DNA from: [Clostridium] colinum
GTDB taxonomy: Bacteria; Bacillota; Clostridia; Lachnospirales; CAG-274
Length of the DNA stretch: 64,000 nucleotides
Direction: 5' to 3'
NCBI RefSeq assembly: GCF_940677205.1
Contig: NZ_OW712331.1
Location: 1,178,001 to 1,242,000, forward strand
In this document: piece after piece, positions 55,928 to 58,324 of the stretch
Position numbering within the stretch: the first letter of the stretch is position 1
Layout of the letters: every line of letters starts with the position of its first letter
Position numbers and translations under genes: made by a program
The notes under the pieces: model-generated
What the model saw: only the letters and a program-made list of their open reading frames with translations
Databases searched by the model: none
Told to the model about the DNA's origin: nothing

Positions 55928-57154
55928 CTAACTTTGTTTACCCCAATTCAAGTGGTCAAATTCGTGTATCAAAATTGTGTTCACAAAGTAGCGAAAGCTG
56001 TCTTCGCAATGGTCTGAAGCCTTGATAACTGCGTCTTCTAGGCTATCTTCGTCCCAGCTATATAATCCAAATTCTTCGATAAAGTTTTCACATCTACTAC
56101 TAATCTTTATATAGTCTGTATCTAAAAGTGTCATACAGTTACTAATACCACTTATAACATCATTTTTAGCATTTATTACATCATAAATTCCATATCTGTT
56201 TATAGTCTCTTTGAAAGAAGTAGCACTAGGGTCAATAACTACTAATTCAATATTATAACCTTTAGCCATATCGTGAATAGCCTTGTAGTGTTCTTCATCT
56301 GTTCTTTTACGCCCATTATGGTCGTTATGGTCATAATAGTACTCATCAATGCAATAAGCTGTATTGCCGTTAATACACCATAATAAACAAGCAAAAGGAT
56401 TAACTATACCATAGTCTATAGATAAGTAATATATTCCTCTTGTAGGCACTTCTTCAACGATATGCTTATCCTTATTAAACTGTTGATAAACAAGTCCCTC
56501 TGCAAGAACCCATTCTCCTAAAATGTAACGTTGATAAAAAACACCACTATATTGATTTTTATACCTTTGTAATGTTTTTTCACTCAAGCTAGGGTTGTCA
56601 TCTAAAGTAAAATGTAGATATTTAGAATTTCTTTCTTTAGCTTTCTTTATCCACTCATTATAAAACCAATGATTAGGACTATCGGGGTTACAACTAAACC
56701 AATATCTAGCGCCGTCAACAGAACATCTAGACAAAGCTTGATTAACAAAAGATTGTGGTTGAAGTACAACTTCATCTAAAAATACGCCAGCTAAAGTACG
56801 CCCTTGAATTAAAGCGAAACTGCTTTCATCTTTGCCACCAAATACTTCAAATGTATTCGTTATATTGCCTTTAGTAATTGTCAGCAATTTATCACTTTTT
56901 CTCCACTTTAAACCATATTTTTGTTTAGCATAATATAAACTAAGATAAGGTACTATAATGTTTTTTATAGCACTATCAACAGTTTTACCACATATCCCAA
57001 ACAGTTTGTTATTATAGTTACTCATTGCCCAATCAATAAAAGCAACAACAAGCCAGGAAGTTTTACCACTTCTTATAGCGCCACTACAAATTATGCTGTC
57101 GTATTCTTCTTCGTAAGGGAATTTTAAAATCTCTAATTGTTTGTTACTTATCAT
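55928..57154 (-). CDS. Terminase large subunit
   Basis: A 408-residue DNA-packaging ATPase/nuclease of the PBSX/SPP1 type. Walker A is GAIRSGKT, Walker B GVFLDEV with the catalytic glutamate. Nuclease acidic residues lie in LSIDYGIVNPFA (first Asp) and VIDPSATSF (second). It overlaps terS by 11 bases. Confidence 0.93.
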   Translation of the reverse strand: MISNKQLEILKFPYEEEYDSIICSGAIRSGKTSWLVVAFIDWAMSNYNNKLFGICGKTVDSAIKNIIVPYLSLYYAKQKYGLKWRKSDKLLTITKGNITNTFEVFGGKDESSFALIQGRTLAGVFLDEVVLQPQSFVNQALSRCSVDGARYWFSCNPDSPNHWFYNEWIKKAKERNSKYLHFTLDDNPSLSEKTLQRYKNQYSGVFYQRYILGEWVLAEGLVYQQFNKDKHIVEEVPTRGIYYLSIDYGIVNPFACLLWCINGNTAYCIDEYYYDHNDHNGRKRTDEEHYKAIHDMAKGYNIELVVIDPSATSFKETINRYGIYDVINAKNDVISGISNCMTLLDTDYIKISSRCENFIEEFGLYSWDEDSLEDAVIKASDHCEDSFRYFVNTILIHEFDHLNWGKQS

Positions 57155-57620
57155 TTTTTTGCCCCTTTACAAAATCTAAAATAGTTTTGCTAAACTCATC
57201 AACTTCTGTATTTTGGTTAGTATTTTGTTCAACTTCTCTTTTTTCTCGCCATTGTTCTGGTCGCCTATTTTTTAACCAGAAAATAGCTGAAGTAGGGTCT
57301 GGTGGTATTTCTTTAGTTATGGTTATTTCTTCAGTTATTTCACCATATTCTTTTTTAACCTTTTTTTCAGTAGTAGTATAACCTAAAGCCCTTTTTAGAA
57401 GTGCATTTTCTACTTGAATATCCACTATTTCCTTGCCTTTTTTTAAGGTCTCCGAAATCTCCGTATATTTATTTTTCCAAGCATATAAAGTTGTTGTACT
57501 TATTGCCATTTTCACAGCTATCTGTTCATCTGTTAAGCCTTGTCTAGCCCAATCTTCAATCTTTAAAAGTCCCTCTTCATTTAACCAGTATTCATATTTG
57601 CCTTTTGCAATAACCTCCAC
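57144..57620 (-). CDS. Terminase small subunit
   Basis: A 158-residue protein with an N-terminal helix-turn-helix (WARQGLTDEQIAVKMAISTTTLYAWKN, shortened) and the family's IPPDPTSAIFWLKNRRPEQW segment. TerS recognises the pac/cos sequence to start packaging. Annotated start is GTG 57620; GGGGG is too close, so the exact start is uncertain. The hairpin-rich upstream stretch 57639-57917 could be its DNA target. Confidence 0.88.
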   Translation of the reverse strand: MEVIAKGKYEYWLNEEGLLKIEDWARQGLTDEQIAVKMAISTTTLYAWKNKYTEISETLKKGKEIVDIQVENALLKRALGYTTTEKKVKKEYGEITEEITITKEIPPDPTSAIFWLKNRRPEQWREKREVEQNTNQNTEVDEFSKTILDFVKGQKNDK

Positions 57621-57638
57621 CCCCTTTTTTGCATAAAA

Positions 57639-57661
57639 AAAGCTAGAATAAATCTAGCTTT
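57639..57661 (-). terminator. Hairpin with T tract directly before terS
   Basis: A nine-base stem (AAAGCTAGA with TCTAGCTTT) and a five-base loop; on the minus strand a run of T follows. It can terminate transcripts from the early genes before terS, so a late regulator may act by antitermination. A near copy of the stem core (GCTAGA/TCTAGC) lies at 57747-57763. Confidence 0.65.
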
Positions 57662-57669
57662 AAATTTGC

Positions 57670-57710
57670 GACTATAAAATTTTACACGATAAACTAAGTG
57701 ATTTATAGTC
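57670..57710 (-). repeat. Palindromic element sharing a 12-base core with the tRNA-like element
   Basis: A nine-base perfect stem (GACTATAAA with TTTATAGTC) encloses TAGTTTATCGTG followed by TAAAA. The core TAGTTTATCGTG also occurs in the tRNA-like element at 57781-57838. Confidence 0.55.
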
Positions 57711-57746
57711 TAGCTCATAAAATTACTGCCGGTTAACGGCTTTGTT

Positions 57747-57763
57747 GCTAGAGTAAATCTAGC
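57747..57763 (-). repeat. GCTAGA/TCTAGC hairpin
   Basis: A six-base stem with a five-base loop whose arms are identical to those of the terminator hairpin at 57642-57658. Nearby TCTAGCTC at 57709-57716 is a half copy. Confidence 0.5.
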
Positions 57764-57780
57764 TCTTAAAATTAATATAA

Positions 57781-57838
57781 GGATATGGTGGGACTCAAAC
57801 CCACTTATTAATGTTTTATCACGATAAACTACATATCC
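57781..57838 (-). ncRNA. tRNA-like element lacking an anticodon arm
   Basis: On the minus strand the 58 bases fold as follows: a perfect 7-bp acceptor-like stem GGATATG/CATATCC, TA linker, a 4-bp D-arm-like stem GTTT/AAAC with a nine-base loop, eight unpaired bases (ATTAATAA) where the anticodon arm should be, and a perfect 5-bp T-arm-like stem GTGGG/CCCAC with loop TTTGAGT. Loop position C56 and the GG of the D loop are both absent, and no CCA follows. It is therefore not a standard tRNA; a truncated decayed tRNA, a regulatory or packaging RNA, or a DNA recognition site are all possible. Confidence 0.45.
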
Positions 57839-57893
57839 TATTTTTTTGCTTATCTTTTTATTGCATATTATAATTATATCATAATTTAAAATT

Positions 57894-57917
57894 GAACTCA
57901 ACTGAACTCAACTGAAC
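57894..57917. repeat. 10-bp tandem repeat, 2.4 copies
   Basis: GAACTCAACT is repeated at 57894 and 57904 with a partial third copy from 57914. It overlaps the stop codon of the late regulator gene and may be a protein-binding site. Confidence 0.6.
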
Positions 57918-58324
57918 ATTTTTAAAAAACTTTTTTTATGATATTTATAAACTGCTCTTGTACTATACCCCTCAATATAAGCTATCTCTTCAAAGGATAA
58001 AAAATCTATGTACTTAAATCTTAAAATCCTTTTTTCAATTTCTTTTAAATTTGCATTTTCTATAAAGTCATTGACTGAGTGTATAGTACCTGCAAAAATA
58101 CTTTTTAATATATCAATTTCCTCTTCTAACGTTATAAGCTCTATAACATTATCTTCAACTTTTTTTGATATATTACTAGATTTTATACCATTACTAATAC
58201 CCGAATTAATAGTAATATCTCCGTTTTTAACTTCAAACTCTCGTTGTTTTTTATCTAATTTTTTTTTGAGTTCTAAAGGCTCTTTTAAAAATTTTTCTAA
58301 CTCTTTTTTGTTACTAAATTTCAT
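57908..58324 (-). CDS. Phage late-gene regulator, sigma/ArpU-RinA-like
   Basis: A 138-residue protein. The C-terminal half resembles sigma region 4 (EIEKRILRFKYIDFLSFEEIAYIEGYSTRAVYKYHKK, shortened: RILRFKYIDFLSFEEIA and STRAVYKYHKK). Proteins of this group lie just before terS and switch on packaging and morphogenesis genes. A good TAGGAGG site is present. It is followed by the hairpin-rich non-coding stretch. Confidence 0.75.
   Translation of the reverse strand: MKFSNKKELEKFLKEPLELKKKLDKKQREFEVKNGDITINSGISNGIKSSNISKKVEDNVIELITLEEEIDILKSIFAGTIHSVNDFIENANLKEIEKRILRFKYIDFLSFEEIAYIEGYSTRAVYKYHKKSFLKMFS

Follow-up and report, generated by a model that had tools for sequence, protein, structure and literature searches.

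A tRNA-like element without an anticodon arm in the predicted leader before terS of a [Clostridium] colinum prophage, possibly a non-translating tRNA mimic

The window, that is, the whole stretch of 64,000 nucleotides of [Clostridium] colinum DNA that we analysed, carries on its minus strand a late-gene regulator gene followed by terS (Table 1); TerL and an SPP1-type portal lie 3' of terS, and the window TerS is HTH-type. The features follow one another on the minus strand as repeats, promoter, tRNA-like element, hairpin GCTAGA/TCTAGC, hairpin GCCG/CGGC, element 2, terminator and terS. Judged from these motifs, the region reads as a promoter, a leader of approximately 230 nt, a terminator and terS. 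The leader region folded better than all of 100 shuffled sequences (z -3.7).

Table 1. Features in and around the gap between the late-gene regulator and terS (positions are those of the window).
Feature	Position	Strand	Evidence
Late-gene regulator (sigma/ArpU/RinA-like fold), upstream gene	57908..58324	-	PHROG_36 transcriptional regulator 1e-13; weak RinA and sigma-70 matches
10-bp direct repeats GTTCAGTTGA x2.7, overlapping the 3' end of the regulator gene	57917-57891	-	sequence
Putative promoter: TTGAGT (57901-57896), 17-nt spacer, extended -10 TGATATAAT	57873..57901	-	consensus match only
Predicted leader RNA, ~233 nt, putative start to terminator	57634..57866	-	inferred from promoter and terminator
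tRNA-like element without anticodon arm	57780..57838	-	Rfam RF00005 39.2 bits; SpF41-family model R1 20 bits
tRNA-like acceptor GGATATG/CATATCC, 7/7 pairs	57838-57832/57787-57781	-	
tRNA-like D-stem GTTT/AAAC	57829-57826/57816-57813	-	
tRNA-like linker ATTAATAA, 8 nt replacing anticodon arm and variable loop	57812-57805	-	
tRNA-like T-stem GTGGG/CCCAC	57804-57800/57792-57788	-	
tRNA-like elbow bases G18, A19, U55, U56	57820, 57819, 57798, 57797	-	
Hairpin GCTAGA-TTTAC-TCTAGC	57747..57763	-	sequence
Hairpin GCCG-TTAAC-CGGC	57728..57740	-	sequence; kept in L057 and L080
Element 2: GACTATAAA-(T)CAC..GTG-TAAAA-TTTATAGTC	57670..57710	-	conserved in genus
Intrinsic terminator AAAGCTAGA-TTTAT-TCTAGCTTT and T-run	57635..57661	-	GCTAGA/TCTAGC arms at 57658-57642
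terS (small terminase subunit), next gene	57144..57620	-	PHROG_309 terminase small subunit 1e-58

The 10-bp tandem repeat described in a sequence-only reading of this DNA was confirmed. The repeats are probable binding sites of the regulator and, together with the extended -10 (TATAAT at 57878-57873, minus strand), form a late-promoter-like site. In own2, own3 and one sister-species prophage, a TGATATTAT box is likewise preceded by repeats of 10-bp period, at a similar distance from the -10 and with different repeat sequences. In L002 and L003, the repeats and the end of the regulator gene have changed jointly, which would fit regulator binding sites. Element 2, the terminator, HNH and the Terminase_4 TerS are almost identical in L003 and L002, two other prophages of this genome (1087927-1088032 and 1939924-1940029), the differences being in the regulator C-terminus and, together with it, the promoter repeats. 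The search for viral relatives of the late regulator found none. L057, L058, L060 and L080 harbour, at ~1180-1380, an opposite-strand short hydrophobic ORF between the regulator and the late promoter; it resembles a type I toxin or a holin-like peptide.

The tRNA-like element is present as the sequence-only reading had described it: 58 bases on the minus strand, with perfect acceptor-, D- and T-arm stems and eight bases replacing the anticodon arm. The Rfam tRNA model scored it above the gathering cut-off (39.2 bits and E 5e-7 on 351 nt; cut-off 29), with an alignment of 57780-57838 covering all but the anticodon arm and the variable loop. It shares three of the four arms of tRNA (RF00005), as well as the elbow contact 19-56, and has no cloverleaf with an anticodon arm and 7-nt anticodon loop; because the anticodon arm and the variable loop are missing, it cannot decode. 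ARAGORN called no tRNA at the element, and a whole-window Rfam scan with default filters missed it although its score exceeds the gathering cut-off. The energy of the isolated cloverleaf was -12.8 kcal/mol, against a minimum free energy of -13.0 kcal/mol. When 150 simulated 64-kb windows were searched with a descriptor that requires a perfect acceptor, D-arm and T-arm, it matched 10 times, a chance of approximately 0.07 per window and far lower for the 280-nt gap.

The tRNA-like element occurs once among 295 genomes of the order, and no relative with the same armless layout was found among them. There was no exact match to its D-arm in viral contigs and no armless element in 48 viral loci collected by TerS. 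Of the tRNA-like matches in these 48 loci, that of L026 alone is near terS on its upstream side, and its anticodon arm is normal. Within the host genome, the T-loop core GGGTTTGANTCCC is present at the window element only, which rules out a copy of a present host tRNA.

The D-loop ATCGTGATA of the element gives G18 and A19, and the T-loop TTTGAGT gives U55 and U56. The loss of the D-loop GG and of C56 had been called consistent with relaxed or altered tertiary contacts. A19-U56 can replace G19-C56, and is better read as a compensated pair, which leaves relaxed contacts unsupported. All tRNA-Val(gac) and tRNA-Thr(cgt) that we found in the order with the T-loop TTTGAGT carry GATA, and hence A19, in the D-loop. 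Since A19 and U56 are also coupled in these chromosomal tRNAs, the elbow of the window element is intact. The chromosomal tRNA-Val(gac) and tRNA-Thr(cgt) with A19-U56 in place of G19-C56 are those of one family in the order (L196-L211).

The two hairpins with identical GCTAGA/TCTAGC arms, one of them a terminator, were also found as previously described. A hairpin comparable to the first of them (AGCTGG/CCAGC) occurs in L057 and L080. An attenuator switch between the GCTAGA/TCTAGC arms was rejected, as the second partner hairpin is missing in several relatives and hence not conserved. The second palindrome had been said to share a core with the tRNA-like element; this core, TAGTTTATCGTG, is indeed present twice (57831-57820 and 57696-57685, minus strand), but the 12-mer is not conserved in own2, own3 and the sister species, which rules it out as a functional site.

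Element 2 has seven further copies in three species of the genus, with two pairs of the outer stem changed on both sides, and the terminator stem is invariant across six distinct copies. Two more prophages in the genome have element 2 and the terminator at approximately 95% identity; both features also occur in two other species of the genus, and are absent from the other genera of the family. Conservation in related prophages, proposed earlier as a test of the element, holds for element 2 and the terminator but not for the tRNA-like element, which is not conserved in the genus. These two features are followed by an HNH and Terminase_4 module in L002/L003 and by another TerS-like start in L057/L080 (first codons, by eye); in L059 and L060, TerS of the same type stands behind the terminator, with neither element 2 nor a tRNA-like element. 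The cargo between promoter and terminator is variable, since sister prophages differ in the contents of this slot (none; element 2; hairpins and element 2; all of these and the tRNA-like element). In element 2, an AATTTTA lying upstream can pair with TAAAATT (57678-57735 and relatives), which might make a pseudoknot or an alternative hairpin with GACTATA/TATAGTC; the register varies among relatives.

The second-best Rfam match was SpF41_sRNA (RF02435; pneumococcal F41, srn277), aligning through the tRNA-like element (21 bits, E 0.54). SpF41_sRNA likewise has an acceptor, a D-arm and a T-arm with no usable anticodon and, like the window element, lies in the gap between an upstream gene and terS with a promoter before it, a terminator after it and no encoded CCA. 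Unlike the window element, it has a bulged acceptor, a 4-bp stub anticodon arm (CCTTGATNGAGG, where the window has ATTAATAA) and a constitutive-looking promoter inside phrog_9479. The window element differs from it in the missing anticodon arm, the 7-bp acceptor, the longer leader and the model score (20-21 bits); with the SpF41-family model it reaches 20 bits, against approximately 28-30 bits for ordinary tRNAs. Because both the gathering score (52 bits) and the stub arm were looked for and neither was found, we did not file the window element as an SpF41 member. The earlier statement that no described element has this layout was nearly right, the closest one being SpF41_sRNA with its stub arm. 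Pneumococcal F41 was verified by Northern analysis as a transcript of 103 nt; it is listed among the sRNAs of pneumococcus, and its deletion attenuates sepsis progression (PMC3395615). Our literature search found no account of SpF41 as tRNA-like or linked to phages, and likewise no description that connects tRNA-like RNAs of phages to packaging, satellites or anticodon stems.

The SpF41 consensus search returned 27 Streptococcus records, approximately one third of them satellites. SpF41-type RNAs lie directly before terS in phages phiNJ2, Javan115, A25, Javan377, MissD, Javan258 and phiST1 (in Javan377, the 3' gene is annotated as hypothetical but precedes terL), and in Dorea phage DO134P1 a real tRNA-Met stands between the RNA and terS, which lies 3' of both. 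In the phages, SpF41 follows phrog_9479, which is absent from the genome of the window. Satellites Javan734, 198, 160, 421, 16 and 468 harbour an SpF41-type RNA near the 3' end of the satellite element and have no terS annotated; in most of the six, the RNA comes directly after a gene noted FIG01118498, which in Javan734 encodes a phrog_3511 protein. Class-wide and pattern searches added Clostridia loci, Peptostreptococcus loci with tandem RNAs, one Aerococcaceae locus and more streptococci. An Aerococcaceae genome (L230:5353-5497) carries an SpF41-type RNA and a second tRNA-like RNA directly after a miaA-like gene, outside any obvious phage. L118 (reverse strand, RNA 1501-1572 and the next 75 nt), L225 and L227, which are Peptostreptococcus-type prophage remnants, harbour two tRNA-like RNAs of different classes in tandem with one shared terminator.

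In an alignment of 12 SpF41-type RNAs (A2), 96.7% of the cells were paired, and double changes affected 10 pairs (27 cells); none of 500 shuffles attained this pairing percentage or this covariation score, and slid structures collapsed. Contact 18-55 was G-U (19) or A-G (7) and contact 19-56 was G-C (20) or U-G (6) in 26 scored distinct SpF41-type RNAs, a one-sided change never being seen; the D-loop position numbers rest on the alignment of 9-nt loops, leaving two RNAs with 10-nt loops unscored, and the sequences behind the covariation and elbow counts are related and represent few independent events. The second RNA of L118, L225 and L227 has U19-A56. TerS proteins that are 93-98% identical (NJ2, J115, A25, MissD) accompany RNAs of classes I, II and III, while the class III phages MissD and ST1 have TerS 76% and phrog_9479 93% identical. 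Satellites carry the phage classes: Javan160 has a class II RNA (93% identical to that of A25) and a class III RNA, the Javan16 RNA is class III, and the other satellites have class I. In Javan160, a third T-arm-like hairpin (GACGGTTGAAATCCGTC) lies between the class II and class III RNAs (L110:2961-3340).

Two other kinds of phage RNA were compared with the window. In the lambda 6S RNA leader (pR' to tR') and the HK022 put RNA, a late-operon promoter is followed by a short structured RNA, a terminator and the late genes. The window has the same late-operon leader plan, but there is no sequence relation and a Q-like gene was not identified in the window. The phi29 packaging RNA (pRNA) is a phage RNA tied to the packaging region, a location that it shares with the window element; the Rfam search gave no pRNA match, and the class of the tRNA-like RNAs is not linked to TerS.

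Our preferred reading, held tentatively and a little short of an even chance, is a phage-encoded non-translating tRNA-mimic RNA in the small-RNA slot heading the late operon. The window element is best read as a further variant of the SpF41 kind and is probably a working phage RNA; the likeness, drawn by analogy, is one of kind and place and does not imply common ancestry. The RNA role suggested in the sequence-only reading gains support from the promoter, the terminator and the analogues with covariation. Anticodon-defective tRNA-like RNAs recur in the gap between an upstream gene and terS with a promoter and a terminator, which argues for a functional RNA, as does pneumococcal F41 being a verified transcript with a deletion phenotype. 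The late promoter would make the RNA during lytic growth. The RNA might then act in trans, offering an acceptor/elbow surface on which no anticodon can be read or cut, and might occupy a protein that binds the top halves of tRNAs, as a decoy for a tRNA-targeting toxin, a defence nuclease or a host tRNA enzyme. We chose a trans-acting mimic or decoy because satellites carry the RNA without terS, and because the classes diversify independently of TerS with no anticodon kept.

The match to the SpF41 model is weak, the neighbouring gene is different and the element is a single copy, all of which count against the mimic, as does the fact that a single recent deletion in a tRNA would leave the same perfect stems. 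We did not rate the mimic higher because such a deletion explains the facts in the window nearly as well: one recent event would have removed the anticodon arm and variable loop from a phage tRNA in the gap, which would now be functionless. This decay is a serious contender, if a rather doubtful one. The acceptor, T8 A9, the D-arm, the T-arm and the discriminator are all in place, the T-arm GTGGGTTTGAGTCCCACC resembles GCGGGTTTGAGTCCCGCC of a tRNA-Thr(cgt) of the same order that also has A19, real tRNAs occupy this locus elsewhere (the tRNA-Met of the Dorea phage, the tRNA-like RNA of L026), and the element is not conserved in the genus; the search for homologues of this layout found none, which also keeps decay in consideration. 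It fits less well with 16 of 16 stem pairs and the elbow being intact, with a position between promoter and terminator amid other structured elements, and with the recurrence of anticodon-defective tRNA-like RNAs in the same gap of unrelated phages.

An effect in cis is improbable. The tRNA-like element would be a processing or stability signal (RNase P/RNase Z), and element 2 and the terminator would exert control by attenuation or antitermination, in the manner of lambda pR'-6S-tR' or HK022 put RNA. All late transcripts from this promoter must cross the terminator before terS, conserved element 2 lies immediately before it, and L059 and L060 keep the terminator alone; however, sister prophages have terS behind the same terminator without the tRNA-like element, satellite SpF41 has no terS downstream, and no described antitermination protein adjoins. 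The packaging site bound by TerS of the sequence-only reading, which would be a pac or cos in the DNA, is highly improbable despite the position directly before terS and the SpF41-type core in satellites dependent on helper packaging: phages with three different TerS types have element 2 and the terminator in common, the SpF41 class changes at nearly constant TerS so that co-variation with TerS type is not seen, and the covariation of helices and elbow is an RNA signature. The least credible explanation is chance resemblance in AT-rich sequence. Loose descriptor matches arise about once per 15 simulated windows, but this does not account for the tRNA covariance score or for a locus where tRNA-like RNAs recur.

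A wider reading, unlikely to hold in all its parts together, is that non-decoding tRNA-elbow RNAs form a broad family, located beside terS in Bacillota phages and satellites, that coupled changes at 18-55 and 19-56 create orthogonal classes, that the window element is an extreme armless member, and that the RNAs serve as class-specific mimics or decoys in trans in conflicts among phage, satellite and host. The comparison itself links SpF41 with an RNA slot of phages and satellites that adjoins terS; the covariation of tertiary tRNA contacts there is near-diagnostic. If the window element is of the SpF41 kind, it shows that the anticodon arm can be stripped this far with the elbow kept, and offers a clear test of what cell component reads an anticodon-less tRNA elbow.

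We also considered phrog_9479 as a toxin with the RNA as its antitoxin. The attraction of the idea is that chromosomal relatives have a small protein gene replacing the RNA. It was rejected, as the satellites and the window are without phrog_9479 and the predicted fold is poor (pLDDT 65), with no match in the PDB. The phrog_9479 family search of 398 genomes gave three loci; two had no SpF41-family model match, and the third had a 24-bit match, within the range of ordinary tRNAs. In L154, L155 and L156, chromosomal DUF4417-like/phrog_9479 pairs are followed by a gene of ~100 aa at the position of the phage tRNA-like RNA; the arrangement could be that of a toxin and its protein partner. In L086 (3132-3515) and its relatives, the codons for the conserved C-terminal WYN of phrog_9479 (TGGTATAAT) also serve as the -10 for the SpF41-type RNA, and the phrog_9479 stop codon lies inside that RNA.
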